A stretch of DNA of 64,000 nucleotides, taken from assembly GCF_003144245.1 (NCBI RefSeq), contig NW_020289978.1, positions 992,001 through 1,056,000 of the forward strand, given 5' to 3'. The position numbers were made by a program, and so were the translations under genes. The number at the start of each line of letters is the position of its first letter. Within the stretch, counting starts at the first letter, position 1. This DNA comes from Jaminaea rosea. Lineage: Eukaryota; Basidiomycota; Exobasidiomycetes; Microstromatales. This document shows positions 16,640-32,826 of this stretch, piece by piece. The notes under the pieces are model-generated. The model did not search any database. It saw nothing but the letters and a program-made list of their open reading frames with translations, and was not told the DNA's origin.

Positions 16640-18886
16640 TCAAGCAAAGGACGCATCAGCGTCGTGCCCAAAGACGGCCGATGTATCCGCCTCGTGACCC
16701 CCGCCTCCCAGCCCACCCGTAGCCGCGCTCCAGAACAGCCCGTGCAAGTAAGCCTCGTAGTCGTACACCTTGCCCTCCCCAGCTCCGGAGCCATTCGACC
16801 CCACAGGTAGACCCAACTGCTCCCTCCTCTCCTCATCCCCCTCCTCAACCTCGGGCATCTCCCGCTTGAAGTAGTCCACACTGCCCGCAGGTAGCTGTGC
16901 CTCGCGCAAGTCCAGCTCGGTAACGTATGGCTTCTCCCCCGCCAGGCCCTGGAATGCCTCCAGTAGTTGCTCAGGGCTCGTCGTGTCCTCTGTGATCTCG
17001 CGAAGGAACGTGAGGAACGCATCGTAGCAAACGCTCCCAAAGTCGTCCTCGAGCTGTACCGCAATCTGCTCCACGTCCGCCTCGCTGTACACCATCCCCA
17101 AGCTCGCCAGCGCCGCGCCCAGCTCAGAGACGGTCAGGCTGTTCGTCCCATCCTTGTCAAAGTAGCGGAACGTGCTCTCAAACTCCTCGAGCTGCGCGGG
17201 GGTGAGGTTGGTGTGCTGCCGCGAGGTGAGCTGGTTGTCGATGAATGCGCTCTTGGCGGCGACGGCTTTGGTGACGAGCTCGAGCTCGAAGCGTAGGTCC
17301 TCCAGATTGAAGACAGTGTGGTCGTTCTCTTCTACATTGGCCTCCACGCAGAGGGCATCCAGGGCGGCTAGGTGGGAGACGCGAGGGGCGACGGAGTGGA
17401 CGCGGGTGAGGAGGGTGGAGACTGTGGAGCGTTGCTTCTCGAGGTCGCCTAGCGTGAAGTGGGAACAGACCAGGTTATCAGCTTGAGTCGGGGTCAATGC
17501 ATCGCTCGCACTCACCCTTGAGCTTGGCAATACCAGCCGAGACGCCTCGCAGCTCCTCCTCGAACTCGTTGGCCGCTTCTGCAAACTGCACGCGCAGGGC
17601 CTCCTTTGCCTCTCGAATCGACTGATTGATCATGCGACTGCGCTTGACCTCCTCCGCAGCAAGGGCCGCCCATTCCGCATCGAGGTCACGCTGTCGCAGC
17701 CCTGCGCGTGGCCTCCAGTCGCGCAGATTGTACGTCTTGAGTTTGGTCTGGATGTTACCCAGCAAAGCCGTGAGGTCCGTCCGCTCTTGCACCCATGACC
17801 GCTTCTGACCGCTCTTGTACGTGTTGAAGCCGGAGAGGAGGGAGCGAGCAGAAGCGTACGATCCTTGTGGGATTGAGGTGGACCATTCGTCGAGGAGCTG
17901 GTGAATGGCGAGGACGAGCGCCTCCGCCCTCCTCTCGTACTCATTCTTCATCACCCAAGCACTCTGCATCACCTCTGCAAATGTGGCCACTCTTCTGCTT
18001 ACCACCTCTGCCTGCTCCATGCTACTGAATGCGTGGAAGTACTGCGCGACGTACGTCATGACGGAGCGCTCGTCGGGCTTCTTGGCATCGCAGAGGTCCT
18101 CTACGTCGAGGAGCTGCGGGATCCCCAGATGCTCTTGCGCGACGCGAAAGGCGAGGGATGTGCAGGCGTGGGCATCGTCTTTGGGGAGCGAATGGTAGTC
18201 GAGGAGGTCCGGACGATGTCGATGGATGAGGGCGCAGAATGCCAAGCCGGATTTCCAGGAGTAGCTGAAGTTGTCAATCTGTACGCGTGAGGGCAAGGGT
18301 GAGTATTTGCCGTCGTGTTGGCGGAGTGTGCGGCGCGCTCACCTCGACTTCGGGCTGGTAGGGCGTCGTCTTGCGTTGACACCAGAGGAGAAGACCCTCC
18401 TTGGCGTTGACGCCCTCCTCGCTGATGTCGGCGATGGTGAAGCGCAGAATGAGCGTCCAGATCATGCCCAGAATCAGCTTGAGGTTGCCGTCGATGATGT
18501 CTGGGAGCGGGGGCGAGGGGTCAGTGAGCGAGCTTCATGGGTCTCTCTCGCAGCTACGCACCCTCTGCTCCTACGTTCGTCAAGACCACCCCTCTGCCCC
18601 TAATGAAATCCAGCGCCTTGTTGACATTCTCGGCCATCTGTACGCGCATCTTTGGATTCTGGTAGTATCGCCCCAGACTCGTTTCGCCCATGCACTCCAT
18701 CAGCTGGATGAGCTTCACTCCATTCGAGAGATCCCTCGACAGGTCAGTGAGGGGCGGCGTGGTGCTCGCAGCAGAGGAGAGCTTCGTGTTGAGCCACTTG
18801 GTGAACGTCTTTGCCTGCACCGACTCCCATTCGCGGTCTTGGTCGGGCAGGCCGAAGAGGAGGGTGGATGAGCGTTTGAAGGCCAT
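16640..18886 (-). CDS. Alpha-actinin (AIN1-like) actin cross-linker
   Basis: Four exons, 18886-18562, 18500-18343, 18278-17516 and 17448-16640, phase-consistent, encode 684 aa. Two N-terminal calponin-homology domains (residues about 15-250) carry the actin-binding signatures [19 protein letters not shown] and [13 protein letters not shown], and [22 protein letters not shown] in CH2. A helical spectrin-like rod of about 240 residues follows. The C-terminus has one canonical EF-hand loop, [12 protein letters not shown] (from about 513), and a second degenerate one. The short rod is typical of fungal alpha-actinins such as S. pombe Ain1, which bundles actin at the cytokinetic ring. The Gly-rich tail near the end is not conserved. 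Confidence 0.9.
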
Positions 18887-19533: not shown

Positions 19534-19983
19534 ATGATGCACATCGGCGTCCTCGCCGCCCTCATCGTCGCCTTTCCCTCGGCCGTCGTGTCCAAACATC
19601 ACAGGTGTGACTTCCAAGGCCCCGGAGGGTACCCTCCTGGCGATTACGGCTACCTTCTGTTCTGCGCTGCGGCGTTTCACAAGGTCGACGACAACCACGC
19701 CCGATACATCTGTGACAATACGACGACTCAGGTAGCGGATTGGAACTATCTCGCTCCACAGGTGCTCGAGATAGGCACGCCCTGCGGCGATGGTGGCTTC
19801 GGCAACTCAGACCAGTGCTACGCCAAGCTCTGGGGGATCTGCTTTGGAGACTCAAAGGGGATCTTCGCTGCCAGCCAAGGCTGTCGATATCTTGGACGCA
19901 AGGACGACTGTGAATGGCTGCAGCGCTTTGAGATGGCACAGCTTCCTCCCTACATCTACGTCTTCCGGGGTCAATGGACGTGA
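19534..19983 (+). CDS. Small secreted Cys-rich protein, array copy 1
   Basis: Intronless, 149 aa. An N-terminal signal peptide (hydrophobic LAALIVAFPSAVV, likely cut near residue 20) precedes a mature domain with eight cysteines. Family landmarks are C1 followed by DFQGPG, LLFC, KVDDNHARYIC, VADWNYL, LEIGTPC, WGIC and DDCEW. It is the leftmost of five same-strand paralogues. It differs most in the C1 region (CDF rather than CSW) and lacks the Pro after the DDCEW block. No match to a named domain was recognised. Secretion is inferred from the signal peptide, and an effector role from the tandem Cys-rich arrangement known in smut fungi. Confidence 0.85.
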   Translation: MMHIGVLAALIVAFPSAVVSKHHRCDFQGPGGYPPGDYGYLLFCAAAFHKVDDNHARYICDNTTTQVADWNYLAPQVLEIGTPCGDGGFGNSDQCYAKLWGICFGDSKGIFAASQGCRYLGRKDDCEWLQRFEMAQLPPYIYVFRGQWT

Positions 19984-20238
19984 GAGCGGGTTGAAGAGGC
20001 GTGCCAGCCGGGGAACAGCGAGCGCGGAGGTGAGGATCAGGCGACAGGGTTACCTCAGGACGTTGTGATCGGTATATCTTTCTTGCCAGTGCGGCGGATC
20101 GGCGGGCTGTTAGAGGGTTCAGGTTATCAGGTCAGCTGTGCTGGGCTGGGCTCACCTAGCGTTCGGGCCGCTCCGTGTCGTGTTATCTCTCTTCTTCCCA
20201 CCACCACCTCCATTCAACTACAATCATCTCCTCTCGCC

Positions 20239-20688
20239 ATGCTCTACCTCGCCTTGATCTCGATTCTCGCGCTCGTTAGCCTCGACGCAGCGCTCGCTGA
20301 CCACCAGACGTGCTCGTGGCGAGGGCCTGGTCCTCGCAACCCCACCAAGTACGGCTTCGTGCTATTTTGCTCGGCGCCGAAGCACATCGTAGATGATCAG
20401 CATGCCCAGTACCTGTGCGAAGGCAACAACATCAAGGTGGCCGACTTCAACTTCCTCGGTCCAGGACTGCTTGAGTTCGGAACGCCGTGCAATAATCAGG
20501 GTTACGCTGAGAACTGCAAGGACTCGACGTGGGGCCTCTGCATCGCAGCTCACGGCACAGGTACCGCAGAGCCCCAGATTGCCCCGAGGTGTTTTTATAT
20601 GGCACGGTATGACGACTGCCAGTGGCCTCAGCAGTTCAACTTGAGCACCTTGCCCGACGCCGTCTTCATCTACCTGAATGGTAGGTGA
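20239..20688 (+). CDS. Small secreted Cys-rich protein, array copy 2
   Basis: Intronless, 149 aa, 255 bp after copy 1. The signal peptide is MLYLALISILALVSLDAALA, followed by mature DHQTCSWRGPG. All eight cysteines are present. Landmarks are VLFC, HIVDDQHAQYLC, KVADFNFL, LEFGTPC, TWGLC and YDDCQWPQQFN. An insertion of several residues lies between the sixth and seventh cysteines relative to copy 4. It has a potential N-glycosylation site (NLS near the C-terminus). The function is unknown; it is probably an extracellular effector-like protein. Confidence 0.87.
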   Translation: MLYLALISILALVSLDAALADHQTCSWRGPGPRNPTKYGFVLFCSAPKHIVDDQHAQYLCEGNNIKVADFNFLGPGLLEFGTPCNNQGYAENCKDSTWGLCIAAHGTGTAEPQIAPRCFYMARYDDCQWPQQFNLSTLPDAVFIYLNGR

Positions 20689-21375
20689 GCGGTGCAGCGA
20701 GGTCGGAGGTGCGCGCGAGGGGAGGAAGCCTAGGGGTGAGGTGGGGGAGTTGGGCCTAATGGCAGGAGCCAGCGAAGATGAGGTGTGCGAAGTGAGAGAG
20801 ACGTGGAGTGAGCAGCTCGATGTGCGACCTCTGTGCTATTGCGAATGATGGTGAGAGATTGAGAACGAGAGGCAAGGAGGGAGAGAGAGAGAAAGAGCGC
20901 ATCGACGACGCAGGACGACGGACAAGCGGGAGCACGCACGTGGCGTCTGCTGGACAGCGTCGGATGCAGCGGGGCGGGTAGAGCTGGCTCGACCGCGGCT
21001 CGCACAGATCAGTCTTCTTAGCCTTCGACTTCCACCATTCACCACCCACGTCACCATTCTAGCGCAGCTGTGACCATGATTCCAAACTGCATCGTGCATC
21101 TCACGCTCAGCAGAGCATGCGGAGAGACATGAGCAGGCCTTCGTGCCCGCACAGCCCCTGACTCAAGCGGCGGAAGCGAAGAGACGCCATCGGAGTACCG
21201 CTTGCAAAGTGTCATTCTCCTCACCATGAACAAGCCGGCCCGTTGCACCGCGGCAAGATGGAAGCGGCACGAGATGTCGGCAATGTCCCGCGACTGAAGA
21301 TTCGATGGCAGCCTCCGAGTCGCCGCTACCTCGCACTTGTCTCCCTTCCATCCTCACACACACCTGCCCACCAGC
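20689..21375. other. Spacer in secreted-protein array, copies 2-3
   Basis: 687 bp. Reading frames in this spacer show none of the VAD/GTPC/DDCEW landmarks, so it does not appear to hold another copy. The promoter of copy 3 must be here. Confidence 0.45.
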
Positions 21376-21816
21376 ATGAACCGCCTCACCACCGTCACTC
21401 TCCTCGCGCTCTTCGCCTTCGCGGCTCTCGCCCGCGCAGAGCACGCCGTCTGCTCTTGGCTTGCCTTTGGCTCAGGTTCGCCCAAGTCGCATGGCTTCAC
21501 CAAATTCTGCACCGCGCCCAAGAGTATTCCCCCTGCAGACCAGGTTCACGCCACCTATCACTGCGAGGGCACTTTGACTAAGGTGGCAGATTTCAGCTAC
21601 TTACGATCGGGTATACTTGAATTCTCGACTCCATGTGCTAAGCATGGGTATGGCGGCGAACACTGCTCCCAGCGTATCTGGGCTGTGTGCCTTCCGTCGG
21701 TCGAGCAGGGAGGAGAGCCACGCTGTTACAATCTGTCACGCGGCGATGACTGTGAATGGCCTACGGGCTTCTTCCAGAATACGCTCCCGGACTCGGTCGA
21801 CATCTACTACCTATGA
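21376..21816 (+). CDS. Small secreted Cys-rich protein, array copy 3
   Basis: Intronless, 146 aa. The signal peptide (TVTLLALFAFAALARA) is followed by EHAVCSWLAFG. Eight cysteines occur at family positions: CSW, TKFC, ATYHC, STPC, EHC, WAVC, PRC and DDCEW. The block KVADFSYLRSGILEFSTPC is nearly shared with copies 2 and 4. It ends with PDSVDIYYL, matching the P-x-x-V-x-I-Y C-terminal motif of copies 2, 4 and 5. The function is unknown, and the protein is predicted extracellular. Confidence 0.87.
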   Translation: MNRLTTVTLLALFAFAALARAEHAVCSWLAFGSGSPKSHGFTKFCTAPKSIPPADQVHATYHCEGTLTKVADFSYLRSGILEFSTPCAKHGYGGEHCSQRIWAVCLPSVEQGGEPRCYNLSRGDDCEWPTGFFQNTLPDSVDIYYL

Positions 21817-22048
21817 GGGCGAGTGGTGTGGGGCGAGGCGGAGGCATTGCGGCGAGAGGCTTTGGCGAGGAGGGCGTCGAGTGGGCGTAGCCGGACGCGA
21901 GGGTGTAGGGCAGAGAGAGTGATTGCGGGTCGATACGATCAACGAGTCAATTTTGCGAGCAACTGCCTGGCCCAATGCCCGGCGCAATGCATCATCGCCA
22001 CCGCTAGCTGTCCTGTACTCCTGACCACGTCCACACAATATCACAACG

Positions 22049-22486
22049 ATGACCTCGTCTGCCGCTACTACAGTTTTCGCCTGCTCCTTTGCGCTCTTTC
22101 TCGCCCTCATCGCTGGCATCTTCCCCGTTGCCGACGCAGACCATTACACCTGCAGCTGGATCTGGGCTCCAGGCAATCCTACGACGTACAACTTCTCCAA
22201 GTTCTGCGATGCGCCAATCACCGTATTCCGCGAGACCAAGGGCATCTACTGGTGCAACAACACCAAGCTACAGGTCGCCGATTTTGACTATCTGGGACCA
22301 GGTATTTTGGAGTTTGGAACTGCGTGTTCTCGTAAAGGATACTCTCCGGACTGCTCCAAGGCCTACTGGGCCGTGTGCATCAGCGATACTGACTGTCGCG
22401 TGATGAATAAAAAGGACGACTGTGAGTGGCCGGTCAAGTTCAACATTAGCACGGCCCCAAAATCGGTGTCCGTCTACTCCGTCTGA
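22049..22486 (+). CDS. Small secreted Cys-rich protein, array copy 4
   Basis: Intronless, 145 aa, 232 bp after copy 3. It has a long hydrophobic signal segment (FACSFALFLALIAGIFPVADA), then DHYTCSWIW. Eight mature cysteines are present, with the segment between cysteines 6 and 7 the shortest in the family (ISDTD). Landmarks are SKFC, GIYWC, QVADFDYLGPGILEFGTAC, YWAVC and KKDDCEWPVKFNIST. The GT-P-C motif is GTAC here. The VDDxHA motif of copies 1 and 2 is replaced. The function is unknown. Confidence 0.87.
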   Translation: MTSSAATTVFACSFALFLALIAGIFPVADADHYTCSWIWAPGNPTTYNFSKFCDAPITVFRETKGIYWCNNTKLQVADFDYLGPGILEFGTACSRKGYSPDCSKAYWAVCISDTDCRVMNKKDDCEWPVKFNISTAPKSVSVYSV

Positions 22487-23344
22487 GCCCGACGTACGGC
22501 AGGAAGGAAAAATCGGCGAGCGAGGGTGATGTGAATATTGCGTGAGGAGCGCGGCAGCGAGGTACGGAGTGAGGACGCGTGGAAGGCGCTGCTGCGGACG
22601 AGGTGGCGCGACGCAAGCGAGAAAGATACGCGACGCCTGGCCTAGCAAGCAATAGATTTGCCACTCACGGACGCTGTCTGATTCGAACACCAAATCGTAC
22701 GTGGCTTCGGGGACGGTAAAGCGCAGGCCATGGCGGGCTGAGTTGGCCGCATCGCACGCGTCTGCCGTAGCGGTTGAGACCTACCTCGGAAGCAGCCACG
22801 TGGGTTGGCCCAGTCCGCCCGCGCCGTCGAGATCAACACTGCTCTGTCCTTCGTCCTCCTTGCTTTCCTTTCTTCACCTGTTCAATCTCTATTCTACTCA
22901 CCATCACCTCGAGCTCTTCGTCTGCTGCTCACTGCTCTTCATCGATTCCCGCTCACACGGATGTAACTGCCCGCGCTTGTCCCGAGCCTCGACTCGATGG
23001 ACTGCATCGCCAAAATGCCTCGCACTTGCGCCCATCCATCTCACTCCGTTCGCCACTAGACCTGCTACCTGACTTGCACGATGGATCGAGCGTATAGGGC
23101 ACGGCAAGACGAGCGAGGCGCGATTGATGCGGAGCAAGAGCCGTGTAGAGGAAGGCACGCTGCTCCGAAGACCAAGGAGAGCGGCGGCCCTACAGTGGTG
23201 CTGCCCTTGGCCCTTCGTCTACGGCTGTGCTCTACCGCACAGGTTCGCGCAACAAGGCTGTTCTAGCGAGAGGACAAGAGGAGTATCCTTTTATGCCCTC
23301 CAATTCATCATCGAGACGCCTAGCACCGCTATCCACTATCCACC
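22487..23344. other. Spacer in secreted-protein array, copies 4-5
   Basis: 858 bp. Several short frames exist, but none shows the family landmarks or a convincing signal peptide. A TTCGAA-containing stretch near 22670 was considered as a tRNA T-arm and rejected. Confidence 0.45.
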
Positions 23345-23794
23345 ATGACCACGTCAAGCCTCAAAGCCCTCCTCGCCCGCATCCTCGTATCGGCCAGCTT
23401 CTTCATGGTGGTTGCAGCAGACCACTTCACGTGCAGCTGGACAGGGCCCAGCACGAAGGACCCCGATCAGCACGGCTATAGCAAATTCTGCGAAGCCGGC
23501 TACTCGGCCTCGAATGTAGGGCGCGGCAGGTATCTCTTCGGCGATAGCATCGACACCAAGGTAGCTGATTGGGGCTTCCTTCACCCTGAGACGATCGAAT
23601 TCGGCACACCGTGTAATGGGGGAGGCTATGGAGGTGACAGCTGTCTGCACGGCAAGTACTGGGGAGTCTGCATCGAGGAAAATGATTATACGCGCGACTG
23701 TCGCTATCTGTCAAAATGGGACGACTGTGAGTGGCCCACCAAGTTCAACAACGACACGCGACCTTCGTCTGTATCAATTTGGTACCAGAAATGA
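23345..23794 (+). CDS. Small secreted Cys-rich protein, array copy 5
   Basis: Intronless, 149 aa. The signal peptide (LARILVSASFFMVVAA) is followed by DHFTCSWTGP. Landmarks are SKFC, KVADWGFL, IEFGTPC, DSC, YWGVC and WDDCEWPTKFNNDT. It has only seven mature cysteines: the third, within the Y-x-C position of copies 1-4, is a non-Cys residue (RYLFGDS). It is the last copy of the array, followed by 0.9 kb without genes. The function is unknown. Confidence 0.85.
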   Translation: MTTSSLKALLARILVSASFFMVVAADHFTCSWTGPSTKDPDQHGYSKFCEAGYSASNVGRGRYLFGDSIDTKVADWGFLHPETIEFGTPCNGGGYGGDSCLHGKYWGVCIEENDYTRDCRYLSKWDDCEWPTKFNNDTRPSSVSIWYQK

Positions 23795-24741: not shown

Positions 24742-27368
24742 CTAAGGCGGGAGGAGGCCGCCGTCGTCGTCTACGGGTGTGAAGCCGTAGAAGCGTGTCC
24801 CGCTCAAGAGGATGCCGATCGCGTCGTCCGTCGATCCAGGGTGCTCGATGCGGAACGAGTTGCCGAGGTTGTTGGCGTCGACGAAGACGGTCCTGCGGCG
24901 AATAATGCGAGCAGCCTGGATGAGCTCGCCCGTCTGCATCCAGTGGTCGGGTTTGCAGCGCTGGTAGAAGCGCTCTCGAAGGACACCTGTCGGAGGCTTG
25001 CCGCCCGGGAAGATCCGCCTCTGCCTGGCATTGAGGTCGGGGTCGGAGGGATCGAGGCTGAAGAACATGTCCTCTCTGAACCCCTCGACGTCCATCCCCT
25101 CGGCGTCTGCGAATACGTGGTATCCGCAATGCCCGTCCCCAGGAGGCGACCAGATGCTGCCGGGCACTATGCAAGCGTGCGGCACGTCATTGCTCTCTGC
25201 CCTGAAGCTCCAAACGCCGCCGACAACGTTGCCCGCTTCTGCCATCGCCACATCGTCATCCCCTGCCTCTTCGCTCCTCGCATCCTCTTCCTCATCCACC
25301 CCGCCGTCGTCCCCGTCGCACCCAGCGTTGTCCCCATTGCGCGCAGCATCGTTCGCGTCGCCACCGGCCTGGTAGACCTGCAGCTCCGACGAGATCTTGA
25401 CGACGTGCTGCATCTTGCCCTCGACGCGGTCGCGCTCCCATCTGCCCTTCAAGCGGGTCCAGACGTCCCCCACAGGGAGAGACTCGATCAAGCGACCAGG
25501 ACCGAAGCGAAGAGGCGCAGATGCATGCCGGTCGTGGTACTTGCGGAGGCCCATCTTGCGGCGGAATGCCTCTTGCTCGTTCTTGGTCACCACGTAGACC
25601 AGACGATTGTATAGGCGCATCTCCCCCTTGCCGCTTGCGAAGAGCAGGCCATCGGTTGCCAGCTTGCCAGGCATGGTTAGCGCCGAGTACCCTGGCTTGC
25701 GTGCCTTGATGATGGCGGCGACGGCGGCGGAGTGAGCGGCGAGACGATCGGCAGCATCGCGCGCCAGAGGGAAAATCAGTTCCACGCCAGGCGAACGTAG
25801 GGAGACGTCGGCGCTCGCGGCCAGCGGATGACGACGCGCTTGACGTCGCGGCATCGGATGGCGACGAGAGCAAGGCCACGGAAGAGCGCTCGATCCGGCG
25901 TGGTGAGGCTGGGCATAGAGCTGTTGCCCCCGCTCTCGACGACGAGCCACCACTCCTCCGACGTCCGGTCCTCCTCCTGCATTGCCACGGCGTCGATCTT
26001 GGGTATAGAGATGCCGAAGAAGAGGTATAATCTGCTGAACGAGGGTATCTTGATGGGCAAGCCGCTGCTCCCCGACATCAGCGGCTTGAGGGTATCGAGG
26101 AACGCATCACCGGCACTGTCGAGGCGAGCGCGATGGCGAGCGCGATTGAGGCCCTCTCCGAAGGCGGTGGCGGTGATGCACAGTCGGCGCATCTTATTCA
26201 GGCGGTCGAGGTGGAACAATACCTCGTCCCCTCGCACCATCCCGGAGTACTTGCGCGCATAGGTCTCCGGCTTCTCGAAGCACCTGGTGCGGTTGCAGCC
26301 CAGCACCTCGTCTCCGATGTCAGGCAGGCCAAAGGTACGACGAGCCTCGAGGAGCGCCTCCTTCTCCTGCACGAAGCCAAGCGGATGAGCCCACAGGCCT
26401 TCGATAATCGCTCGGTCCTCCCAAGCCTGAGGCTGGTAGCGTTGCGGCGACGAGTCCTCGAAGAGGGGAAAGAAGATGCCCGAGCCGCTCGCACGAATGG
26501 CGCCGTAGATCTTTGCGCCGCGGGAGGAGTTGAAAAATGCCTGTGCTAGATGGTCCACGAAGCGGTAGAAGATGGAGCCGGACCTGCCGACGTAGATGAA
26601 TGCAAGGCGGCCATTTTTGATCCCCATGCCGAGGTAGACGCCTGCGCCTGGGATGCGAGAAGGACGGCCGTCCTTGTCGAGGGTGCTGTTGATGGAGAGG
26701 TTGAAGTTGTCGAGCCAGAACTTGGCCGAGCGAACCGTATCCATGTCGCCGCTGTCCAGCAGGGCCCAGATCTTGCGCGCCATTGGTGAGGCACCGTCCA
26801 CGCCTCGCTGCCACGCCGCTGGGTTGATATCAGACGTCGTCGATGAGCGCGAGGCGACTGCCTGGGAAGAGCGTAGTGCGCTGCCAGCAGGACGATGAGG
26901 CCGGGACATTGTCCAAGAACGGCTGGCCACGAAGGAAGCGAGGGTAGATTGGTTGTCCGTTGGCGTCCTTGGGCAGTTGCTTGGCTGACACCACGTCCTC
27001 CGCCGTGTACTCGCTGGGTGTCGCCTTGCGCTCGGGCCCTTTGGCAACCTTCTTCCCCTTCCTGCCGGACTTGCTGCCCTTCTTGCCCTTCTCGGTGGAG
27101 CGCCTGTCTTTGCGCTTCTGCACCTTGTAAGCCTTCTTGACGTCGGCCGGAAGAGTCTCGACTGCTTCGTGCTGCGAGCGGTCGATGTTGGAAAAGTCGC
27201 CCGTGCTAGTGCGATGCCAGAAGGATGCGAGTGACGTAACTTGGAGCGTTGGACGCCATCGACGATCTTGGTCTCCGAGGCGTGCCTTGGCTGCTTGCTC
27301 ATGAGCTTGTCCTGCTGGGCCTTGAAGACGTACGACTCGTGGTATTTGCGAGCGGCATTGGACGACAT
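24742..27368 (-). CDS. Unrecognised protein with GIY-YIG-like and OTU-like segments
   Basis: Best single-gene model: exons 27368-27255, 27171-26908, 26861-25797 and 25704-24742, all phase 0, 801 aa. Introns of 83, 46 and 92 nt have non-consensus GTC/GTT donors, so the model is tentative. Segment 1 is short and very basic (Lys-rich around residues 55-85). Segment 2 looks like a GIY-YIG nuclease core: GVYLG (about 200), IYVGRSG (about 215), R226, H230, and a Glu in the AWEDR/IIEGLW region (274-280). Segment 3 has an OTU-protease-like nucleophile motif, GDGHCGY, with Cys near 674, after an acidic linker. The later OTU His position appears to be Arg in GTRFYGF. Alternatively these are two genes, with the OTU-like one starting at ATG 25674 (310 aa). 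No named family was recognised overall. Confidence 0.5.
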
Positions 27369-30248: not shown

Positions 30249-32318
30249 TCAAATGCGCCCGCTCGGCGTGCGCACCAGCCTCTGCTGCGAGCTCGTGCTC
30301 GTCCTGTCCGCTTCCTCGGCCATCGTCTGCTCACCGACCTCCTCTCCACGCTTGCGCTCCTGCAACTCGATCAAGCTGGGATGACGAGCGAGGTACTGTC
30401 TCCTTACGCGCCGCGCATCCACGTAACCACGCGAGCTCGTGTCCCACTCCGCCGTATTCGTGCCCGCGCCCGCAGCAAACGACTGCGTAGTCGAATCGGT
30501 GCCCCAACGTGGCTCCTGCTGTTGTTCGCTCCCCTCCGGCACGATGTCGTCTGCAAAGTAGCCATGCAAGAGAGCCGCCTCACGCAGTCGTGCTTGCTCT
30601 TTGGCAGACAGAGCAGCCACGGCAGCCTTGTGACTCGCCGAGTCGCTGTGCGTCTCGTCCGTAGCGCCAGCGTCTCCGCCCTCCTTCTCACGCGTGTAGC
30701 CGCCATCAGCCCCGCTCCTCCTCGCACGGCGTCGCGCGTACCATGCTAGCAGGCCGAACAGTAGCATCATCCCCAAAAAGGCCACCACGACCCCAATGGC
30801 GATCTTGCCCCCTGTGCTCAGCCCGCCGCTGTCGTTGGACGTATTGATGCCGTACTGCGCGTTGCTGCCCAAGCTCTTGCCCTCCACGCGCACCTGATGG
30901 AACTCATCGAAGGCCTCCGTGAGGTTTGTCGTCGTGGGGAACAAGCCGACCTGCGGATTCAAGCAGCCAGAGTCTCCCGCTGCTGCTGCTGGCGCGCCTT
31001 GCAGTACACCATCGCACGTGTAGACCGAGTAGGCGCTGCGTAGAAAGGGGGCACCGAGTACCACGTCCGCCCCGGCTGGCGAGCCGGCATCGAGCGACTG
31101 GAAGGAGCCGATGCAGCCGGATGTGGCGGCCCCTGATGTGTCGGGCGTGTCTTGCGCAAGGCTGGCGTCGAGCGGGTGGATAGGCACCGAAATCCCGCCC
31201 ACGCTCAGAGTGAGATTGAGCGGGAGGGTGCAGGGCGTGTAATAGATGCCCGAATCCGAGGGACCCAGCCTCTGTCCCGTCGATGGATCGACGTAGGTCC
31301 CGTAGATGGCGTTGAGCAGCGCCGCCGGGGCGTAGTTGAGCGGGGCAGCCGTATCCAGGACCACAGTTGGGTATAGCGTCGTCTGACCGGGGAAGGACGT
31401 AGGGATGCGAAACGTCGCTGAGCCATTGTTGGCGGAGATGTCGGTGAGGTAGAGCTTCCAATGGTGGGCTAGGCCGTTGGCGTCAGGGACTACTTGCGTG
31501 AGGGGGATGCGCGAGGATGAGGAAACGTATGCTGGATCCACGCCGAGCAGCGAGAGGGACGACGTAGCCGTTCGCCCACCGCCGTCTGATGGCAGGCGCT
31601 GCAATCCCACACCAAACATCCGCGTGCCAGTGTCTGCGTCCGCCCATAACCCTGCCAAGACGTCGCCCGTAATCGACGGTGTGGGCAGAGAGTTGTTCTC
31701 GCCCGCCCCTATCACCGAGTTACTCGTCAAGCTCAACCCCAGTATGCCCGACACATTCATGCTAGCCAGCTGCTCATTATCCACATCCGTCGCAGCTCCA
31801 AATGCTTGACCCTTGACCTGCGCCTTGCCCAGTTGCACGTCCTGCGTCCAAACGTCCCCCTCGGCGCCACCGTTTACGTAGCTGATATTCCAGCTCTTCC
31901 CCGTACTGACTGCCCCCGATGCACGCACATCGTAGCGCTGCACCTCGTTACCGTTCGAGGTCCCTTGACACGAGTCGGAGCGACAGCGAGTGTCTGCCAC
32001 CCAGAGGTCGGCGGACCCCGTGTCCACGAGAACGTTGAGCGTCGTGTTGGAGCCCAAGGTGAGGGGCGCAGAGTAGACTAGCTGCCCGTCGGAGAAGCCA
32101 TAATTGAGGGGGATGATGTTGGGTGAGCGGGGGAGTGTGGCGCCCGACGGGCTTGACGATGCGGCTGACGCAGCTGCTGATGAAGAGGATGCGGTTGCTG
32201 ATGATGATGACGACGACGAGGCAGAAGTAGCAGGTGGGGCTCGACCGGCTAGATCGCCCGACTTCCTGCGCCTTAGTAGCTTGCTCGGCCGCTCATATGG
32301 CTCAGCGTGAGCCGTCAT
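30249..32318 (-). CDS. Membrane-anchored aspartic-protease-like protein (pepsin A1 fold)
   Basis: Intronless, 689 aa. The first catalytic motif VDTGSADLWV has its Asp at residue 99. The second lobe has LDTAAPLNY with Asp at about 322, where active pepsins normally have DTG[TS]. A Ser-rich region (30-60) precedes the protease domain. One transmembrane helix (about 506-527) is followed by a basic stop (YARRRARR) and a cytosolic tail of about 160 residues. Several Asn-x-Ser/Thr sites occur in the domain. No signal peptide is visible at the N-terminus, which instead has KLLRRRK, so an upstream exon may be missing. By analogy to fungal yapsin or CtsD-like proteins it may act at the cell surface or vacuole. 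Activity is uncertain. Confidence 0.75.
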   Translation of the reverse strand: MTAHAEPYERPSKLLRRRKSGDLAGRAPPATSASSSSSSSATASSSSAAASAASSSPSGATLPRSPNIIPLNYGFSDGQLVYSAPLTLGSNTTLNVLVDTGSADLWVADTRCRSDSCQGTSNGNEVQRYDVRASGAVSTGKSWNISYVNGGAEGDVWTQDVQLGKAQVKGQAFGAATDVDNEQLASMNVSGILGLSLTSNSVIGAGENNSLPTPSITGDVLAGLWADADTGTRMFGVGLQRLPSDGGGRTATSSLSLLGVDPAYVSSSSRIPLTQVVPDANGLAHHWKLYLTDISANNGSATFRIPTSFPGQTTLYPTVVLDTAAPLNYAPAALLNAIYGTYVDPSTGQRLGPSDSGIYYTPCTLPLNLTLSVGGISVPIHPLDASLAQDTPDTSGAATSGCIGSFQSLDAGSPAGADVVLGAPFLRSAYSVYTCDGVLQGAPAAAAGDSGCLNPQVGLFPTTTNLTEAFDEFHQVRVEGKSLGSNAQYGINTSNDSGGLSTGGKIAIGVVVAFLGMMLLFGLLAWYARRRARRSGADGGYTREKEGGDAGATDETHSDSASHKAAVAALSAKEQARLREAALLHGYFADDIVPEGSEQQQEPRWGTDSTTQSFAAGAGTNTAEWDTSSRGYVDARRVRRQYLARHPSLIELQERKRGEEVGEQTMAEEADRTSTSSQQRLVRTPSGRI

Positions 32319-32826
32319 GATAGTGAGCGTGCGTGGGCGTGGGCGTGGTATGAGGTGAGATGAGGAGGATCAAAAGAAAGCTCGACGACTCTTGGTCCCT
32401 CCCTCCGTCCCTCGCCGCCGTCTTGCTCTCGCGCTTCGGGGCGCCGCCTCCTGCAGAGCCTTGCAGTCGTCAATCCCGGGGTCAATCGAATCGCCACCCG
32501 CCCACCCGGGGTTCCGCGCTGCGATTCCGCCGCCTGGCCTTCCACTCTCCCGCCCTCCCGCCCTTCCCGCGGCGGCGAGGGGTAAAACACTTGGCGCGAG
32601 TCGAGGAGAGCTTGGAGTCATGGTGGTGATGATTGAAAGAGGTGATGCTGGAAGGAATACAATGATGAAGACGAAGAGAAGACGAAGAGGCAACGCGAAT
32701 GAGGAAGGCGTGTTGGAGAGAAAAAAAAGACCGCAGCGCAGACTCGCGGCCCTAGAGAGGTGGGCGCGGCAAGAAGGGAGAGTCGCGATCACATCCTCCC
32801 AGCTACGGTATTAGCACGCCACTACC
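32319..32826. other. Intergenic region, aspartic protease promoter / TCP11 3' end
   Basis: 508 bp. A GTGGGC-type hexamer repeat sits at 32330-32346. On the minus strand a hydrophobic frame around 32650-32700 could supply a signal-peptide exon for the protease, but no clear splice pair was found. Confidence 0.4.

Follow-up and report, generated by a model that had tools for sequence, protein, structure and literature searches.

Five small genes in a 64,000-nucleotide stretch of the Jaminaea rosea genome (C4:992001-1056000 of a 16.6-Mb, 21-contig assembly; hereafter the window) are part of a family, about 90 genes strong, that encodes putatively secreted, cysteine-rich proteins. J. rosea belongs to the Microstromatales (Exobasidiomycetes, Ustilaginomycotina). 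With about even confidence, we propose that this family supplies a repertoire of secreted, non-enzymatic, all-beta binding proteins with an extracellular role on the leaf, and that it grew by tandem duplication together with retrocopying. Each protein would be made with a signal peptide and would fold outside the cytoplasm (secretion being judged from composition), its mature domain being all-beta, probably sandwich-like, and held by up to four putative disulfides. The constant scaffold (eight cysteines, H-x-x-C-x-W, VADW, L-E-F-x-T-P-C, W-x-x-C, DDC-x-W-P and V-x-I-W) would bear loops varied in length and sequence, and a binding repertoire seems most likely because it is a constant scaffold that carries these varied loops. 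The targets may be plant or microbial partners on the leaf surface; an effector role is possible, in a fungus reported from this habitat.

A family of about 90 genes

An iterated profile run over fetched genome stretches, followed by splice-aware modelling, located 91 family loci, 83 of them with full-length models. The first genome search, with the fourth window copy as query, had returned 82 exon-level matches at E <= 10. Contig C10 holds 40 loci and C20 holds 36, with five on C4, four on C14, three on C2, two on C1 and one on C7; one gene appears to be split between two of the C10 loci, and we therefore speak of about 90 genes. The locus count is a lower bound, the genome having been covered in part. 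Four further queries, taken from distant members, yielded two more C10 loci and filled out another one on that contig, and two later genome queries brought no new loci; weak matches, each with one stop, lie at C9:654241 (E 0.066) and C11:127569 (E 0.46). On C20, 19 loci lie on one strand within 168.4-182.8 kb, two relics included, and at least three C20 loci (171758, 177499 and 211090) are relic-like. Neither C20 end, nor the one C10 end inspected, carries telomere repeats in its 800 terminal bases, which gives no ground for calling C20 a whole chromosome. Tens of members that appear secreted by composition are thus found in one lineage, as in a lineage-specific expanded secreted family.

A sequence-only reading of the window had described an apparently new five-gene family; a gene family it is, but the scale was missed. 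The five same-strand genes are present on the + strand as described, each a single open frame of 145-149 residues without introns: copy 1 at 19534..19983 (149 aa, a putative signal peptide plus mature domain), copy 2 at 20239..20688 (149 aa), copy 3 at 21376..21816 (146 aa), copy 4 at 22049..22486 (145 aa) and copy 5 at 23345..23794 (149 aa). All five have a hydrophobic N-terminal stretch followed by a [DKE/H]-H-x-x-C start. The ordered motifs that the reading had listed are shared, with 26 of 166 alignment columns invariant, except that copy 1 has C-D-F in place of C-S-W. Its count of eight cysteines per copy holds for copies 1-3 and for the mature part of copy 4, which has a ninth in its signal peptide, but not for copy 5, which has seven, the third family cysteine being replaced by phenylalanine.

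Common design and predicted fold

Across the 83 full-length models, cysteine columns 1-8 are occupied by cysteine in 83, 80, 77, 72, 78, 82, 81 and 79, respectively, and 63 models keep all eight; splice-model errors may account for some of the remaining 20. Because the same eight columns are kept across the family, the cysteine pattern of the window copies is not a matter of chance. Other strong columns are the tryptophan two residues after Cys1 (75 of 83), the alanine of VAD (80), the two aspartates before Cys8 (76 each), the tryptophan after Cys8 (80) and a later proline (80). A simple script, which misplaced the mature start in at least two of the 83 models (copy 4 and C10_575875p), found a strongly hydrophobic N-terminal stretch in 78, an A-x-A-like site near the junction in 74 and a possible N-glycosylation site in 72, with a median net charge of -4 for the mature proteins. 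The description of the window genes as secreted (by composition), cysteine-rich and duplicated is thus supported.

Joint losses of cysteines are suggestive of disulfide pairing, and of no firmer conclusion. Cys2 and Cys3 were lost together in all three Cys2 losses (hypergeometric p 0.0002, relatedness ignored), and Cys4 and Cys5 in three of five Cys5 losses (p 0.015), in a table in which a shifted alignment makes copy 5 seem to lack Cys5 and which includes the unsound model C20_177499m. Two of the Cys2-Cys3 double losses are sound (C20_212467p and C10_420408p), the third (C10_570525p) being a doubtful splice model; C10_353953m, outside the 83, also lacks both by eye. Against this pairing, copy 5 has lost Cys3 alone and C10_571550p was scored as lacking Cys3 alone.

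An AlphaFold2 model of copy 2 (pLDDT 84.5, pTM 0.76) predicts an all-beta fold of seven strands. Fold comparison of this model returned fn3, TRAF/MATH and Avr2 structures, with fn3 folds high in the list. Searches of the Protein Data Bank by sequence gave no meaningful relative, and Pfam gave no family match to the five window copies at E <= 10, in agreement with the earlier statement that no named domain is recognisable.

Among the proteins scanned, P0019 alone rose above the Pfam IL6Ra-bind cut-off (score 26.4 versus 24.3), over about 50 residues. At E <= 1, the same domain was matched in two of 12 A2 members and one of 12 A4 members (best E 0.003); it is absent from the five window copies at E <= 10, and an above-cut-off match across the family was not found. 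The family motif C-x-W-x-P-G...P..Y, which we take to resemble that of type I cytokine receptors, and the fn3-like fold matches are what the family has in common with the receptor fn3 domain. We judge both the IL6Ra-bind and the IL-3 receptor matches to be due to chance, the former most likely reflecting a fortuitous motif on a sandwich of similar form. Pfam matches to DUF1039, PIR, Tailspike_C, Phage_zn_bind and fn3 were weak and were set aside. P0019 itself (NCBI BDZ90DRAFT_261278, 255 aa, C10:219318-220812) fuses parts of two adjacent family genes, so that annotation of the family is at fault in at least one NCBI entry.

Introns and the spread of the family

C10, C14, C2 and C1 together hold 44 full models, in which three recurrent intron positions are used 11 times (phase 0), 33 times (phase 1) and 37 times (phase 1); no full model on C4, C20 or C7 uses any of them. 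The five C4 copies, the single C7 copy and 29 of the 33 full C20 models are intronless. Outside C20, other intron positions occur once each, and ten of 100 modelled introns have GC donors; these one-off positions and donors indicate that the splice models are imperfect. The C20 pair 181344 and 182241 (C20:181344-182771) shares an intron, with an odd acceptor in one of the two genes, at a place unused by the rest of the family; it is possibly a gain.

In the tree, one group (100/97) unites the C7 copy, a metagenomic relative and four C10 genes whose models have two introns each. A single clade of C20, C4 and C7 genes is rejected (p 0.026), whereas C20 plus C4 is not (p 0.141), in a test whose groups were named after the first tree and in which the intron-bearing C20 pair was kept. 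Neither the best tree nor any of 200 bootstrap trees unites the five window copies in a clade, although the well supported branches alone do not exclude a single origin for them. From this distribution we infer that tandem duplication started from intron-bearing genes and that all introns were lost wholesale at least twice, as from cDNA; loss of every intron at once, at least twice, fits retrocopying, and the direction of change would likewise be from intron-bearing to intronless. The shared introns and their intronless derivatives would then form a genomic record of how the family spread.

A candidate promoter element, TACAAGTGA, seemed enriched upstream of the intronless genes and was rejected: its letters spell a Tyr-Lys-stop gene end, and since many members end in Tyr-Lys-stop (by eye), it most likely marks the preceding gene of the array.

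Tempo of divergence and relatives elsewhere

Across 90 protein models, each shares 31-71% identity with its nearest paralog, with a median of 50%. For the 23 nearest-paralog pairs that are at least 50% identical, the synonymous divergence (dS) is saturated, and hence undefined, in seven and 1.1-3.1 in 16; the ratio of non-synonymous to synonymous divergence (omega) in these 16 is 0.10-0.39, a gene-wide average between paralogs rather than a per-site value, and rough because dS is so high.

Twenty proteins were listed when a database of 5.8 billion was searched with profiles three times: four from J. rosea (P0002, which is copy 5, P0007, P0010 and P0019) and 16 from short metagenome contigs. 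P0007 and P0010 are identical (100%) to members modelled on C20. Eight of the 16 metagenomic relatives match a J. rosea copy at 93-99% identity, including P0003 (95%, copy 1) and P0001 (97%, copy 3); two stand at 79% and 85%, and six have no J. rosea counterpart above 43%. P0012 resembles the C20:171758 relic by eye, and an intact relative therefore exists elsewhere. The searches listed no relative beyond J. rosea and these contigs; they need shared five-residue words, so distant relatives could have been missed.

These results do not bear out the proposal, made from the window alone, that the genes duplicated and then diverged fast in the manner of smut effector clusters: the five copies form no clade, dS is at least 1.1 or saturated in all 23 pairs, omega is low and half of the metagenomic relatives are nearly identical to J. 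rosea copies. The pattern looks like old birth-and-death evolution under constraint rather than rapid divergence of recent date.

Possible functions

The tempo also bears on a narrower form of our proposal, in which the proteins would be plant-directed effectors that modulate or suppress plant defence in an as yet undescribed plant-associated phase, like smut and rust effectors. We regard this as somewhat unlikely. The low omega between paralogs and the high identity of those eight metagenomic relatives give no obvious arms-race pattern; the three profile searches brought up nothing from Ustilago; and J. rosea is reported from the Plumeria phylloplane, with no disease named in the literature found (PMC8880017; this and all other papers are drawn on in excerpt).

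That the proteins bind the fungus's own surface or nutrients (cell wall, lipid, glycan or metal), the copies being adjusted to different conditions and not to different partners, we consider unlikely: about 90 diverged copies are many for such a role, and P0007, which UniRef labels Cyanovirin-N, has no Pfam CVNH match at E <= 10 (the scan filters drop most matches above E of about 0.1). The other narrower form, in which the proteins would serve antagonism among leaf microbes or their recognition of self and non-self, would suit a large, old and diversified secreted repertoire in a leaf-surface fungus whose gene content may vary by genotype or species (the six metagenomic relatives lacking a close counterpart), yet it is quite improbable given that the mature proteins are mostly acidic, unlike cationic antimicrobial peptides, and that no killer-toxin family was matched in the members scanned. 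Because the plant- and microbe-directed alternatives are narrower forms of the proposal of a secreted binding repertoire, the likelihoods of these readings overlap.

Comparison with known systems

The Mig1 family of smut fungi (Ustilago maydis, U. hordei and Sporisorium reilianum) is likewise secreted and clustered, with conserved cysteines and sequences that have diverged over a kept fold (PMC12503489, PMC4081819). The Mig1 cluster has 13 members with four strongly conserved cysteines and two disulfides (PMC12503489), and mig1-related genes number 3, 8 and 19 in three species. The J. rosea family differs in having about 90 genes and eight cysteine columns, and does not show the four-cysteine, two-disulfide arrangement. 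Mig1 itself was not compared in the word-based searches that listed no Ustilago protein. ToxA-like effectors (ToxA, Avr2 and AvrL567) are small secreted beta-sandwich proteins, which our family may resemble, to judge by the predicted fold of one copy; Fusarium Avr2 resembles TRAF domains (PMC5659127), and the same two groups appear among the fold matches of copy 2.

In size, the family compares with large lineage-specific secreted expansions in plant pathogens. Among 21 species, nearly species-specific effector families of at least 100 members were reported exclusively from Blumeria, Puccinia and Phytophthora infestans; Ustilago maydis and Magnaporthe had families of about 30, and in other fungal pathogens no family exceeded 15 (PMC9816061); these clusters were built on sequence and structure, and the counts are not strictly comparable with ours. 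The largest effector family in Venturia has 75 members (PMC9632046). In contrast to these pathogens, J. rosea is a leaf-surface fungus, and its family members are still related in sequence and show low omega. Nor do they resemble sequence-unrelated, structurally similar (SUSS) effectors, as they were found with a sequence profile and have nearest paralogs at 31-71%.

J. rosea is recorded from the Plumeria phylloplane in Florida (PMC8880017) and has been called a phylloplane fungus, with filamentous growth on Tween40 (PMC7766764). For a fungus to which the literature found attributes no disease, the family is large, comparable expansions being reported from specialised plant pathogens. Literature on J. 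rosea and Jaminaea, seen as titles and abstract openings, contained nothing on this family, and among the matches listed for effector or secretome work on Microstromatales none named the order. Tentatively, and at less than even confidence, we suggest that a non-pathogen, as far as this literature goes, maintains about 90 secreted beta-sandwich proteins locked by disulfides, a repertoire of effector scale that is old and constrained and was spread by retrocopying and tandem duplication. If so, such expansions need no obligate parasitism; the repertoire would serve life on the leaf surface, through plant tolerance or microbe recognition, and effector families could later be recruited from it. 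A leaf-surface fungus with about 90 related genes in 16.6 Mb would stand as an exception to the published pattern, and this species has been cultured; the family thus offers a test of whether large secreted repertoires are for parasitism or for everyday life on leaves.

Neighbourhood of the window array

Upstream, the array is flanked by alpha-actinin-like frames at 16643-18886 (-), with a CH domain, an EF hand and a Ca2+-insensitive EF hand. Downstream, two overlapping long reading frames occupy 24742-27368 (-); Pfam gave no match at E <= 0.01 to the frames 24742-25950 and 25776-27365 (-). An aspartyl protease frame of 706 aa lies nearby at 30252-32369 (-).
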